DNA of 64,000 nt from Terriglobia bacterium (GTDB lineage: Bacteria; Acidobacteriota; Terriglobia; JAIQFV01). The stretch covers positions 1 to 64,000 of the forward strand of contig JAIQFY010000001.1 of NCBI GenBank assembly GCA_020072965.1, written 5' to 3'. This document shows positions 14,535 through 18,829 of this stretch, one piece after another. How positions within the stretch are numbered: the first letter of the stretch is position 1; every line of letters begins with the position of its first letter. The notes under the pieces were generated by a model, which saw only the letters and a list, made by a program, of their open reading frames with translations, was not told where the DNA came from and ran no database searches. The position numbers and the translations under genes were made by a program.

Positions 14535-15224
14535 CTACCTTGCCTCGGTCCATTGTGAGGACGGATCCACAAACTCAAGGCCGTGCCAGAATGGGCCGAT
14601 GACTCCTTCTTCATCGGTCCAGGCCACGCGGGCCATTGTGCGAACGGAAACGTCTCCAGATTCGGGCAGAAAAGCCTGGCAGATTTCGACTTCCTCACCG
14701 ACTGCAAATTGAACGGGCAACCTCATCAGGGCCCCGTACCGGGTGACGTCCACGGTTTCGGCCGCGACTTCAATTTTCTTCCCGTGGATGTCCTTGCCGC
14801 GAATCGTAATGGGCACCCTCATATTAACCCGTGGACTTCTGCGGCGTTCCACCGGGGCCACTTGCATGGCGCAGGTCACTGCATCAGAAATCTTTGCAAT
14901 CGTAAAAGGCTTCTCGAGGTAGTCTAGCGCGCCCAATTCCTGGGCAGTGGCCCACACCTCGTGTCGGGGCTTTGCCCCCATGAAGAGGATGGGAATCAAC
15001 TTTGTCTGCTTAACGGATTTGAGGATCTCGCACAACATAAAGCCGCCCATTTGAGGCATCATAACATCCAGCAGGATGCAGTTCGGGTGGTCGAGGACGG
15101 CCCTGCGGATGGCTTCCTCCCCGGATCGCGCCACCAGGACTTCGTATTGCGGGGCGAAGGTCTTCAGCAAGGCCTCCACGATTTGTGGCTCTTCATCAAC
15201 AACGAGCAATCTCTTCTTGTCCAT
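14535..15224 (-). CDS. Response regulator with PilZ output domain
   Basis: A 229-residue two-domain protein. The N-terminal receiver (residues 4-120) has acidic VDEE, phospho-acceptor Asp in ILLDVMMP (about Asp53) and Lys in YLEKPF. The C-terminal PilZ domain begins with the c-di-GMP-binding signature RRRSPR (about 127-132) and continues with TVDVTRYGALMRL, in place of the usual D/NxSxxG. It probably converts a phosphorylation signal, and possibly c-di-GMP, into control of motility, surface or polysaccharide functions. No histidine kinase is adjacent. The SD GGGAGA precedes ATG 15224. Confidence 0.88.
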   Translation of the reverse strand: MDKKRLLVVDEEPQIVEALLKTFAPQYEVLVARSGEEAIRRAVLDHPNCILLDVMMPQMGGFMLCEILKSVKQTKLIPILFMGAKPRHEVWATAQELGALDYLEKPFTIAKISDAVTCAMQVAPVERRRSPRVNMRVPITIRGKDIHGKKIEVAAETVDVTRYGALMRLPVQFAVGEEVEICQAFLPESGDVSVRTMARVAWTDEEGVIGPFWHGLEFVDPSSQWTEAR

Positions 15225-15302
15225 CGCAATCTCCCAGGATCAGCTTCCACAGGTCAGATTCCACTTGCATATCACATCGCGTTCTTGGCAGAGGATATCA
15301 CG

Positions 15303-15554
15303 TTAACGACGAGCATCGTCATCTGGGTATTCGGGCTTAGGTTCCTTGATGGGTTTGGGCTCCGGGGTTTTACACTCATTCAGATTCTTCGTTTTCTCAT
15401 AGCATTTGCCAAGCTCATTCAGTTCCTTGCCCTTGGTATGACAATAATTGCAGGGTTTGCCCTCCTTCTTAGTGAATTCTGCCTTCCCGACCAAAATTGA
15501 AACAGAGAGCAATGTCGAAAGGATGAAGAGAAAGAACAACTTCAACAGTTTCAT
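15303..15554 (-). CDS. Small exported CXXCH protein (possible mono-haem cytochrome c)
   Basis: Only 83 residues. The signal peptide (1-24) is followed by a single CNYCH haem-attachment motif (about residues 35-39), two further Cys residues, and a Lys/Pro/Glu-rich tail (PEPKPIKEPKPEYPDDD). SD GGGGGAGG. It is too short for a normal class I cytochrome c fold, though mini-cytochromes of this size exist. CNYCH with two extra Cys could alternatively bind a metal or form disulfides. The neighbouring genes give no functional hint. Confidence 0.7.
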   Translation of the reverse strand: MKLLKLFFLFILSTLLSVSILVGKAEFTKKEGKPCNYCHTKGKELNELGKCYEKTKNLNECKTPEPKPIKEPKPEYPDDDARR

Positions 15555-15636
15555 GAGCGACGCCTCCCCCCTTCGTCTCAGGATCCTAATGAGATGCTGT
15601 GATCCAAGTGATAGGCTGTCATAACGATTTCAATCG

Positions 15637-15972
15637 TTACGATGATTCCGGCCGCACGATGACGGCCGTCCCATAGCACAAAACCTCCGTCACACCTTGC
15701 AGCATTTCGGTGGCATCGTACCGTACCCCGATCACGGCATTGGCGCCGAGCTGCTGCGCGTGGGAAACCATCATCTCAAACGCCTCCGCCCTTGTCTTCT
15801 CACAGAGCTCGGTAAACAGAGTAATATTCCCCCCGAAGAGTGTCTGCAAAGAGCCTCCGATCGTCCCGAAGATGGAACGTGAACGAACCGTGATCCCCCG
15901 GACTACCCCCAGGGTCTTCGTAATCCGGAAACCATCCAGTGTGAAGGCCGTGGTCGTCATCGCAGGTTCCAT
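15637..15972 (-). CDS. YbjQ/UPF0145 family protein
   Basis: A 111-residue cytoplasmic protein matching the YbjQ family from end to end. It has the TLGVVRGITVRSRSIFG start, a central helix (CEKTRAEAFEMMVSHAQQLGANAVIGVRYD) and a final strand VLCYGTAVIV. Members form pentamers and are loosely described as heavy-metal-binding, but the function is unproven. SD AGGAGAG. The gene stands alone. Confidence 0.9.
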   Translation of the reverse strand: MEPAMTTTAFTLDGFRITKTLGVVRGITVRSRSIFGTIGGSLQTLFGGNITLFTELCEKTRAEAFEMMVSHAQQLGANAVIGVRYDATEMLQGVTEVLCYGTAVIVRPESS

Positions 15973-16402
15973 TCAGACTCTCCTGGCGGGCAGTGCGAAA
16001 GAGTTCTTGTGCTCAAGGCAAGCATCCGGCATCGATTAAAACCTGGCTTCCTATGGATCTGTATCTTCGGGGTGGCCGTCGGCTAAGCATGCCTCCCCCA
16101 TTCTGAAAGAGGTGCGCCTCCTAAAGACACTCAGGCACCGGGCAAAGAGAGCCGCGGTATTAGGACTCGTCGGCCCGGTTTTATCATATCCAACCCGGGT
16201 TGAACCCCAGAGAATGCGAACCCGGGTCCTAACCAGGTGAACGTCACAAGGCCTGTTTTGTGAACCGCCACAGGGGCTCCGACCCCATGTGGATTGGTCA
16301 GACTGAATCATCACAATTTCCCTGGAGCCTTGAGAACCGAAGTAGAGTCCTTCACCCTCCAGGAAAATCAGACATGAATACCGCACACGGTCATTCCGCC
16401 AC
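15973..16402. other. Intergenic region without recognised genes
   Basis: This 430-bp region lies between YbjQ and the end of the DUF1573 gene. A 138-codon minus-strand frame (16051-16467) overlaps the DUF1573 C-terminus and has no protein character. Nothing else is recognised. Confidence 0.4.
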
Positions 16403-16843
16403 TCAGTGTGGAGGGGTATCCGCGGGTTTCTTTTCCTCTTCAAACTGTGCCTTGATAAACAGGCCAAAAGTCGGAAAAGCGGAATCGTTGGTCGCCACGC
16501 TGGCTCCTTTTAGAATTTCACCGCGGTAGCCTTCGGTGTGTTCAATGCTCAAGGTGATTTTGCCCTCCTTGCCAGGAGGGACGACTTTGTCAAAGTCGCT
16601 TGCCGTACACCCTCAGCCGGGACTGACGGACTTGATTAACAGGTCTTCGGTCCCTTGGTTCTTAATCGCGAATGAATGACTAAGCCGCGTGCCTGGCCTG
16701 ACAATCCCAAAGTCATGAGTCACCTTTTCCACGACAAGTTTGGGCGCTCCTGGAGGCTGCTCACTTTGTTTCTGCTGAGATCTCCCCAAGCCGGGTAGGG
16801 CCAATACCAGCAGCATTACTAATAGGGTTATTTTTTGCTTCAT
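16403..16843 (-). CDS. DUF1573 protein with in-frame UGA at a conserved Cys: candidate selenoprotein
   Basis: Reading from ATG 16843 gives a signal peptide (residues 1-22) and a DUF1573 domain (KVTHDFGIVRPGT, IKNQGTEDLLIKSVSPG), then a TGA at 16615-16613. The same frame continues for 69 more codons with perfect family character (GCTASDFDKVVPPGKEGKITL, GYRGEILKGASVATND) to a second TGA at 16403. DUF1573 proteins normally read CGCT at this point, so the UGA replaces exactly the first Cys, giving a U-G-C redox-like motif. Two tight hairpins follow the UGA. Either Sec is inserted here, or a single TGC/TGT to TGA mutation or read error broke the gene. Without readthrough the product is a 76-residue fragment. 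Confidence 0.7.
16563..16599 (-). promoter_or_regulatory. Tandem hairpins after the UGA: possible bacterial SECIS element
   Basis: On the mRNA strand, 14 nt after the UGA, CGACUUU-GAC-AAAGUCG forms a perfect 7-bp stem (16598-16582), extendable by a G.U pair. Its 3-nt loop starts with G and begins about 21 nt after the UGA, in the range known for bacterial SECIS elements. Immediately next, CCCUCCU-GGCA-AGGAGGG (16580-16563) forms a second perfect 7-bp stem. Both lie inside coding sequence. Structure is seen; SECIS function is inferred. Confidence 0.4.
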
Positions 16844-17039
16844 GGATTAATTTTCCGCCTCCATACGGACTGAGTGCCACTGCAGAGCTTACCAGATTGA
16901 GCAAGGCAGTGTCACCAGCCCTTTTAGAACGAAGTGAAACAGAGATTTTAACAAGGGTCATCGAAGGGGTCTTGGAGGTTCCCAATTATCCGACCCTGGC
17001 ATCAGGAAAAAATGCAAACCTGCAGTTGTAGCTTGAGGT

Positions 17040-17627
17040 TCAATGAATCCAGGCTTGAACGGGTGCACTCAGGAAAAAGGCGAGAAGCCCGAGAGGAATT
17101 GCTGCGACAAGATCGAGGATATAGTGTTGTTTTGTAAACACCACGGACATCATGGACAGTCCCATCGGCAATGACAAAACCCAGCCGTAGGCATTGCGGT
17201 GAACGAAGAGAACTGATAGAGCGACGATCAACATGGACACGTGCATGCTGGGAAGCAGGTTGTACGGAGCAACCAAACGGTGAAGGAGCAGTGTCAACCG
17301 TTCGGAAAAGGCTCTGGGTTGAATGGGGATTCGGATGAGTTTCGTTGGAACAGCAAGGAAGATGATGTAAGACGACAGCATGACCATGGCGCTCGCAAGG
17401 AGATATCGCTCCATCAGACGGGGAACTTCAAACAGAACAAAAAAGGGGAACACAATCAGGGGGAAATACAGGCAGTAGAAATAAATGAACCAGGGGATAA
17501 AAGGGATTCTACCATCTAAATGGATCGAAGGGACGATGGCTATTCGGCCGGAGTTGACGAAATTCACCAGGAGGTCGAGTGACCAGAGGCCCAGGAAGAT
17601 GACGATGTATACAAACGACCCGCTCAT
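17040..17627 (-). CDS. PAP2-superfamily membrane phosphatase-like protein
   Basis: A 195-residue protein with about six membrane segments. The PAP2 catalytic motifs are visible: PSMHVS (motif 2, with its His) and KQHYILDLVAAIP (motif 3, with His and Asp). The motif 1 region reads VPTKLIRIP and is atypical. PAP2 enzymes remove phosphate from, or transfer it between, lipids such as phosphatidate, undecaprenyl-PP or phosphoinositol ceramide, and the substrate here is unknown. The gene is monocistronic; the DUF1573 gene lies 196 bp downstream on the same strand. Confidence 0.85.
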   Translation of the reverse strand: MSGSFVYIVIFLGLWSLDLLVNFVNSGRIAIVPSIHLDGRIPFIPWFIYFYCLYFPLIVFPFFVLFEVPRLMERYLLASAMVMLSSYIIFLAVPTKLIRIPIQPRAFSERLTLLLHRLVAPYNLLPSMHVSMLIVALSVLFVHRNAYGWVLSLPMGLSMMSVVFTKQHYILDLVAAIPLGLLAFFLSAPVQAWIH

Positions 17628-18259
17628 GAGGCGACCGGATCTTTCAGTAAGGCCGCAGGAGAGCTCTCAGTCACGGGCATCCACCCATTTACTGCCCCAA
17701 AAAGCCAGGATACCACTATCCCGTTAGATTCGAGATCATGGCACCCACTTCAACTGGGGTCGGCGTTCGCTGTTGTGTCGGCGACCACCTCGCGTCCTTT
17801 GTTGATCTTCCATCCAGCCTGAACCGTATGGTTCTTCCAGGGAAAAGCTGGCTTAGCAACGATGGGACTACCAGCGCTTAGATTCTTCCCGCCAAAACGA
17901 CTCACACTCCATTGGATGCATCATCCTTCCATCGGCGGCTATGATAAATGTTCGAACTATCATGAGACCCTGCCGGAGGTGCGAAGCCGGATTATCTCCT
18001 GGAACCGACTTGCTCTCGAGCATTGTGCATCGGCCCATGAGAGACAAGCGCCCCTCTTAGTAAAACCGACCTCACGGAGGCCCCCGGTCTCGCACGCTTC
18101 AAAGACCATGAAGCTGGGAATCCCACGTTAAAGGTTGAATTTTCCCCCGGCTCCATGGCAACTCCTTGGCGTATAATGACATCAATGCAATTAGGGGTTA
18201 CAAAGGTCATTCAGCTCATGCCTTATCCCGCCATTGTATGTTAACCCGGGGAGGCTCGC
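17628..18259. other. Divergent intergenic region
   Basis: This 630-bp stretch lies between PAP2 (minus) and the PEGA gene (plus). A TATAAT box at 18172-18177 could be the -10 of the PEGA transcript, but no good -35 is seen. Short frames here look non-coding. Confidence 0.35.
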
Positions 18260-18829
18260 ATGCCGGCTACACAAACAAAGGTCAAGAGAGTCCTGCTAGT
18301 CTTTTTCCTCAGCGCTTCATTTGTCGTTTCTTCTGTGGCATGGGCGGCGGACGAGCAGGCTAGCCCCACCCCAGGGAAAGAGGTGACCCCAGTCGAAGTG
18401 GCTCCCCATCGAACTCTAAGGGTTGGCGCCATCTCACTGGGAGCCTTCTATTCGTACTCTTCCGGCTGTCCGTTTCTCTATGGTTGCTATCCATACTTCT
18501 GGGATCCCTATTATTCCGGGTTCTGGCCAACCTATTGGTACTACCCTCCGTTTTATCCACCGGTCCAACTTCCCGGCTACTCCGGCCCTGGGCAAGGCGG
18601 AGAAATCAGACTAGAAACCAACGCCAAAACCGCCGAAGTCTATCTCAATGGCGCTCTTGCTGGAATCGCGGGACACCTGAAGAGTTTTTGGCTTGCACCC
18701 GGCGTCTATGAACTGGAGATTCGAACAGAAAACCGGGTCGTTTTTCAACAACGGATTTACGTCCTGACCGGGAAAACAATTCGAGTCAAAGCCACGCTGG
18801 CAGAAGAGAAAAAGGAGGCGCTGCCATGA
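18260..18829 (+). CDS. Exported PEGA-domain protein
   Basis: A 189-residue secreted protein. ATG follows a GGGGAGG SD. The signal peptide (1-30) ends AWAAD. A very aromatic Tyr/Trp/Pro-rich linker follows (about residues 72-112: PYFWDPYYSGFWP, YWYYPPFYPP), then a C-terminal PEGA domain (GGEIRLETNAKTAEVYLNGALAGIAG, WLAPGVYELEI). PEGA domains occur in surface and S-layer-like proteins. The gene overlaps the next by ATGA, so the two are translationally coupled and likely work together at the cell surface. Confidence 0.82.
   Translation: MPATQTKVKRVLLVFFLSASFVVSSVAWAADEQASPTPGKEVTPVEVAPHRTLRVGAISLGAFYSYSSGCPFLYGCYPYFWDPYYSGFWPTYWYYPPFYPPVQLPGYSGPGQGGEIRLETNAKTAEVYLNGALAGIAGHLKSFWLAPGVYELEIRTENRVVFQQRIYVLTGKTIRVKATLAEEKKEALP

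Follow-up and report, generated by a model that had tools for sequence, protein, structure and literature searches.

Selenoproteins with a DUF1573 domain have been described before. Two reviews list a 'DUF1573 domain-containing protein' with the domain pfam07610 and the motif UGC (PMC9312934; PMC13188914), and both refer for it to Zhang and Gladyshev 2007 (NAR 35:4952); going by that citation as the two reviews give it, the OS_HP2/DUF1573 selenoprotein family was first described in 2007. A third publication equates OS_HP2 with pfam07610, gives its motif as UxC and counts 2 selenocysteine (Sec) sequences and 354 Cys homologues in its data set (PMC2398784), and NCBIfam holds a model, NF041425, named 'OS_HP2 family (seleno)protein'. 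Neither review mentions Acidobacteriota in its main text, and a frequency of Sec-DUF1573 in this phylum was not found in the literature examined.

The stretch of DNA analysed here (the window) comprises 64,000 nucleotides of an Acidobacteriota genome. Its first-pass annotation had proposed a candidate new selenoprotein family, taking DUF1573 not to be among those described. The reviews, PMC2398784 and NF041425 together rule out a new family and show this view to be wrong. Given that Sec-DUF1573 is both published and modelled, the window gene is a new instance of a known family, a well supported addition that modestly extends its range. OS_HP2 has the same DUF1573 domain and U-G-C motif, but comes from a deltaproteobacterial symbiont of Olavius algarvensis. 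What is new here is apparently the breadth: the Sec form is present in about 10% of the Acidobacteriota genomes sampled, Sec and Cys have changed places several times, and in one protein a Cys domain precedes a Sec domain. Many new genomes confirm a family of which few sequences have been published so far.

The gene and its predicted Sec codon are placed as follows:

16403..16843, minus strand: OS_HP2/DUF1573 selenoprotein gene, from the open reading frame and its translation and from Pfam and NCBIfam matches.
16613..16615, minus strand: predicted Sec codon, an in-frame UGA at residue 77 in the motif U-G-C-T, in a column shared with Cys homologues.

The frame opens with an ATG at 16843 and closes with a terminal TGA at 16405-16403, and its sole internal TGA is codon 77 (16615-16613), followed by 69 sense codons; the coordinates, motif and codon count of the first-pass annotation were all correct. 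Read through, the product has 146 amino acids with U at position 77 (MKQKITLLVMLLVLALPGLGRSQQKQ...SVSPG-U-GCTASDFDKVVPPGKEGKITL...PPH) and a hydrophobic, signal-peptide-like segment at its N-terminus. Pfam DUF1573 (PF07610) matches residues 38-124 of this protein (1.8e-16, 60.4 bits; gathering cut-off 26.1 bits), a span that crosses the TGA and includes the U-G-C motif, which bears out the claim of DUF1573 character on both sides of the codon. PF22544 (HYDIN/ASH-type) also matches, at 3.4e-9. With U entered as C for scoring, NF041425 gives 87.6 bits (5.4e-25), below its curated cut-off of 100 bits, and the window protein further differs from OS_HP2 in being a short single-domain form; two relatives score on either side of this cut-off (L009, 104.5 bits; L105, 81.4 bits). 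The Cys-containing DUF1573 proteins have the beta-sandwich domain and the CGC(T) motif in common with the window protein, but carry TGC or TGT where it has UGA and are without the SECIS-like hairpin described below. Under standard annotation the gene would be cut short after codon 76 and its active site would be missing.

We hold with high confidence that the UGA at codon 77 is read as Sec and that the protein belongs to the OS_HP2/DUF1573 family. Decoding would be carried out by SelB and Sec-tRNA(UCA) under the direction of a hairpin 13-32 nt past the UGA, and the product, judging by its N-terminal hydrophobic segment, is predicted to be exported. The AlphaFold model (pLDDT 86.9, U modelled as C) is an all-beta sandwich, in which residues 77-79 (Sec-Gly-Cys) fall within the short turn that links strand 68-75 to strand 80-84. 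The best matches among solved structures are 2qsv (Porphyromonas, function unknown) and HYDIN/ASH/PapD-like domains, with top Foldseek matches at E about 4e-6 and a TM-score of 0.6; the HYDIN/CFA65/VesB-like Ig (ASH/PapD-like) domains, such as PDB 2qsv and 2e6j, share the fold alone with the window protein. We therefore picture a single Ig/ASH (HYDIN- or PapD-like) beta-sandwich that would present Sec-Gly-Cys in an inter-strand turn. Sec77 and Cys79 would most likely form a reversible selenenylsulfide, through which the protein would act in thiol/selenol redox; a small periplasmic redox protein of this kind is the most likely role, and we consider it probable rather than secure.

The same Sec-Gly-Cys might instead bind a soft metal, in a selenoprotein that does no redox chemistry. 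CXC pairs can bind metals, and the next gene downstream, in the window as in the sister genome, is annotated YbjQ, 'putative heavy-metal-binding'. This neighbourhood is not conserved beyond the genus, however, and Sec usually takes the place of a redox Cys; we judge metal binding to be unlikely, while regarding it as the one rival of any weight. The YbjQ gene lies at 15637-15972 on the minus strand, and adjoining it at 15303-15554, also minus, is a gene for a small secreted-looking protein with the motif CNYCH (CxxCH). Both stand in the same order in the sister genome (G001) and are not kept in more distant relatives. Clustering the open reading frames over the fetched loci revealed no conserved neighbour pointing to a redox pathway, and a conserved operon that would reveal the function was discarded as a lead, the neighbours in these loci being common to close lineages only.

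Using a profile of four proteins (those of the window, of G001 and of L009 and L010, two Acidobacteria MAGs from a separate collection with UGA at the same site), we surveyed 396 genomes of the same phylum. Counting L009 and L035 as one record, we obtained at least 42 distinct TGA loci from at least 41 genomes, the window included; the UGA form occurs in at least 39 of the 396 sampled genomes. In all 42 loci the TGA sits in the column of the window's UGA and nowhere else in the domain, and among the matches listed that same column holds TGC or TGT in 32 of the 32 Cys homologues. The UGA/Cys pairs that the first-pass annotation had suggested looking for are thus conserved, and its placement of the TGA at the first Cys of the CGC motif stands; judged from these alignments, that placement is far beyond chance. 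Six further matches with weak scores, from the classes closest to the window genome, have other residues in the column.

A second feature downstream of the codon distinguishes the two forms:

16581..16599, minus strand: SECIS-like hairpin, arms GCGACTTT / AAAGTCGT, loop GAC, from folding, register analysis and covariation among relatives.

Counted from the U of UGA, the hairpin occupies positions 17-35, and its stem (GCGACUUU-GAC-AAAGUCGU) closes on a 3-nt apical loop, G first, at positions 25-27. Across the family it is located within the coding sequence about 12-35 nt after the UGA, from where it would direct the decoding. Among the matches listed, 38 of 42 UGA genes have a hairpin whose stem counts 6 or more contiguous pairs, as against 0 of the 32 Cys genes; of the four remaining UGA genes, two fold into stems of 6 and 8 bp that close on a larger loop. 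The mean minimum free energy over positions 10-40 is -12.6 kcal/mol for UGA genes against -4.7 for Cys genes (Mann-Whitney p 2.4e-12, with the sequences treated as independent of kinship). To allow for the unequal G+C of the two sets, the control was a synonymous recoding drawn from each gene's own codons, and this gave p <=0.05 for 26 of the 42 UGA genes and 0 of the 32 Cys genes among the matches listed. For the window hairpin alone the same control is borderline (z -1.9, p 0.05), and the region folded by itself reaches a z of only -1.67; a search of 15000-18500 against Rfam gave no match.

The arms are wholly different from lineage to lineage (GGTGGCCTCGT/ACGAGGCCATC, CCCTGGC/GCCAGGG, ACTTTGCT/AGCAAAGT). 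In 22 relatives' sequences of one register, 91% of the cells pair, with 25 both-side changes in the helix (mean of 10.4 in shuffles) and a covariation score of 0.350 (0.151 in shuffles); neither value was equalled in any of 500 shuffles, and the signal collapses once the partner is slid by 1-3 nt. The register of this set is a few bases off that of the window, so that the covariation supports the SECIS of the family and not the window's helix base by base. On this comparison of sequences the downstream hairpin is SECIS-like and conserved by structure across the family.

The window genome (108 contigs, 100% complete) contains all four components of the Sec machinery that the first-pass annotation had proposed searching for: tRNA-Sec with anticodon TCA on contig C9 (69.8 bits), SelA (556.5 bits), SelB (381.7 bits) and SelD (376.7 bits). 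Its selD (L030, G000:C68:64978-65904) has an in-frame UGA of its own, in the motif AAG-U-AAK, at what we take to be the usual Cys/Sec position, and is therefore itself a predicted selenoprotein. With these genes present, the genome very probably uses selenocysteine. The tRNA-Sec with anticodon TCA is also found in the genomes of G001, L009 and L010, and selA scores above cut-off in 37 of the 40 other UGA genomes; for two of the three in which it was not found, a UGA genome of the same genus has it. As selA is above cut-off in 33 of 40 Cys-only genomes as well, selenocysteine is commonly used within the group, and we set aside the machinery as a discriminator of Sec from Cys genomes: selA is necessary, not discriminating.

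The identity of an inserted residue cannot be read from sequence alone, and the UGA could in principle be decoded as another amino acid, by UGA=Trp reassignment or near-cognate readthrough. Against this, the site alternates with Cys only among the homologues read, the window gene and its ortholog in G001 both terminate at TGA, the tRNA-Sec(UCA) and its partner genes are all in the genome, and the SECIS-like hairpin is restricted to UGA forms. We consider such decoding very improbable, and Sec at codon 77 strongly supported by the complete machinery, the Sec/Cys pairs and the covarying hairpin.

A nonsense mutation of TGC or TGT to TGA in a decaying DUF1573 pseudogene is equally hard to credit. 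What speaks for it is length: the window form and that of G001 have 146 amino acids and one domain, most relatives 340-400 amino acids, a shortness that could reflect the loss of C-terminal domains. But the G001 gene, from a genome of the same genus and at 79% amino-acid identity, shares both the internal UGA and the point at which the frame ends, and synonymous and non-synonymous counts between the two give dN/dS 0.24 before the UGA and 0.17 over the 69 codons past it, so that the downstream part is under selection as protein. The first-pass annotation had named close relatives with TGC or TGT, plus other mutations accumulated in the window gene, as an observation that would refute Sec; G001 keeps its UGA, with purifying selection on both sides. 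With the UGA held in an identical column in at least 41 genomes and a hairpin that covaries among relatives, we reject the pseudogene. A sequencing or assembly error, conceivable in that the window genome is a draft, is still less credible and is rejected, since independent genomes share the TGA.

Returning to Sec-DUF1573 as a family, a tree built from the domain after masking the site requires 10 Sec/Cys changes (8-10 in bootstraps), at least 4 of them forced by well supported branches; the alignment is short and the counts carry no direction. We suggest, tentatively and at somewhat less than even odds, that Sec-DUF1573 is widespread in Acidobacteriota with repeated Sec/Cys exchange (L073 included), and that it serves an extracytoplasmic redox role that has so far gone undescribed, built on an Ig/ASH-type beta-sandwich and not on a thioredoxin fold. 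The many Sec/Cys pairs are material on which the role of Sec-Gly-Cys on an Ig-like fold can be tested.

Domain arrangement varies among the relatives. The form in the window's genus stops after one DUF1573 domain, and the close Sec homologues L009 and L010 run about 210 residues further. L073 (G341:C24:100000-104000, minus strand) encodes in one frame a Cys domain (CGC) and then an adjacent Sec domain (UGC), and is a natural Sec/Cys pair within one protein. L094 and L103 (G112 and G133) carry, some 1 kb downstream of the Sec form, another DUF1573-like domain with CGC, encoded in a different frame of that strand.
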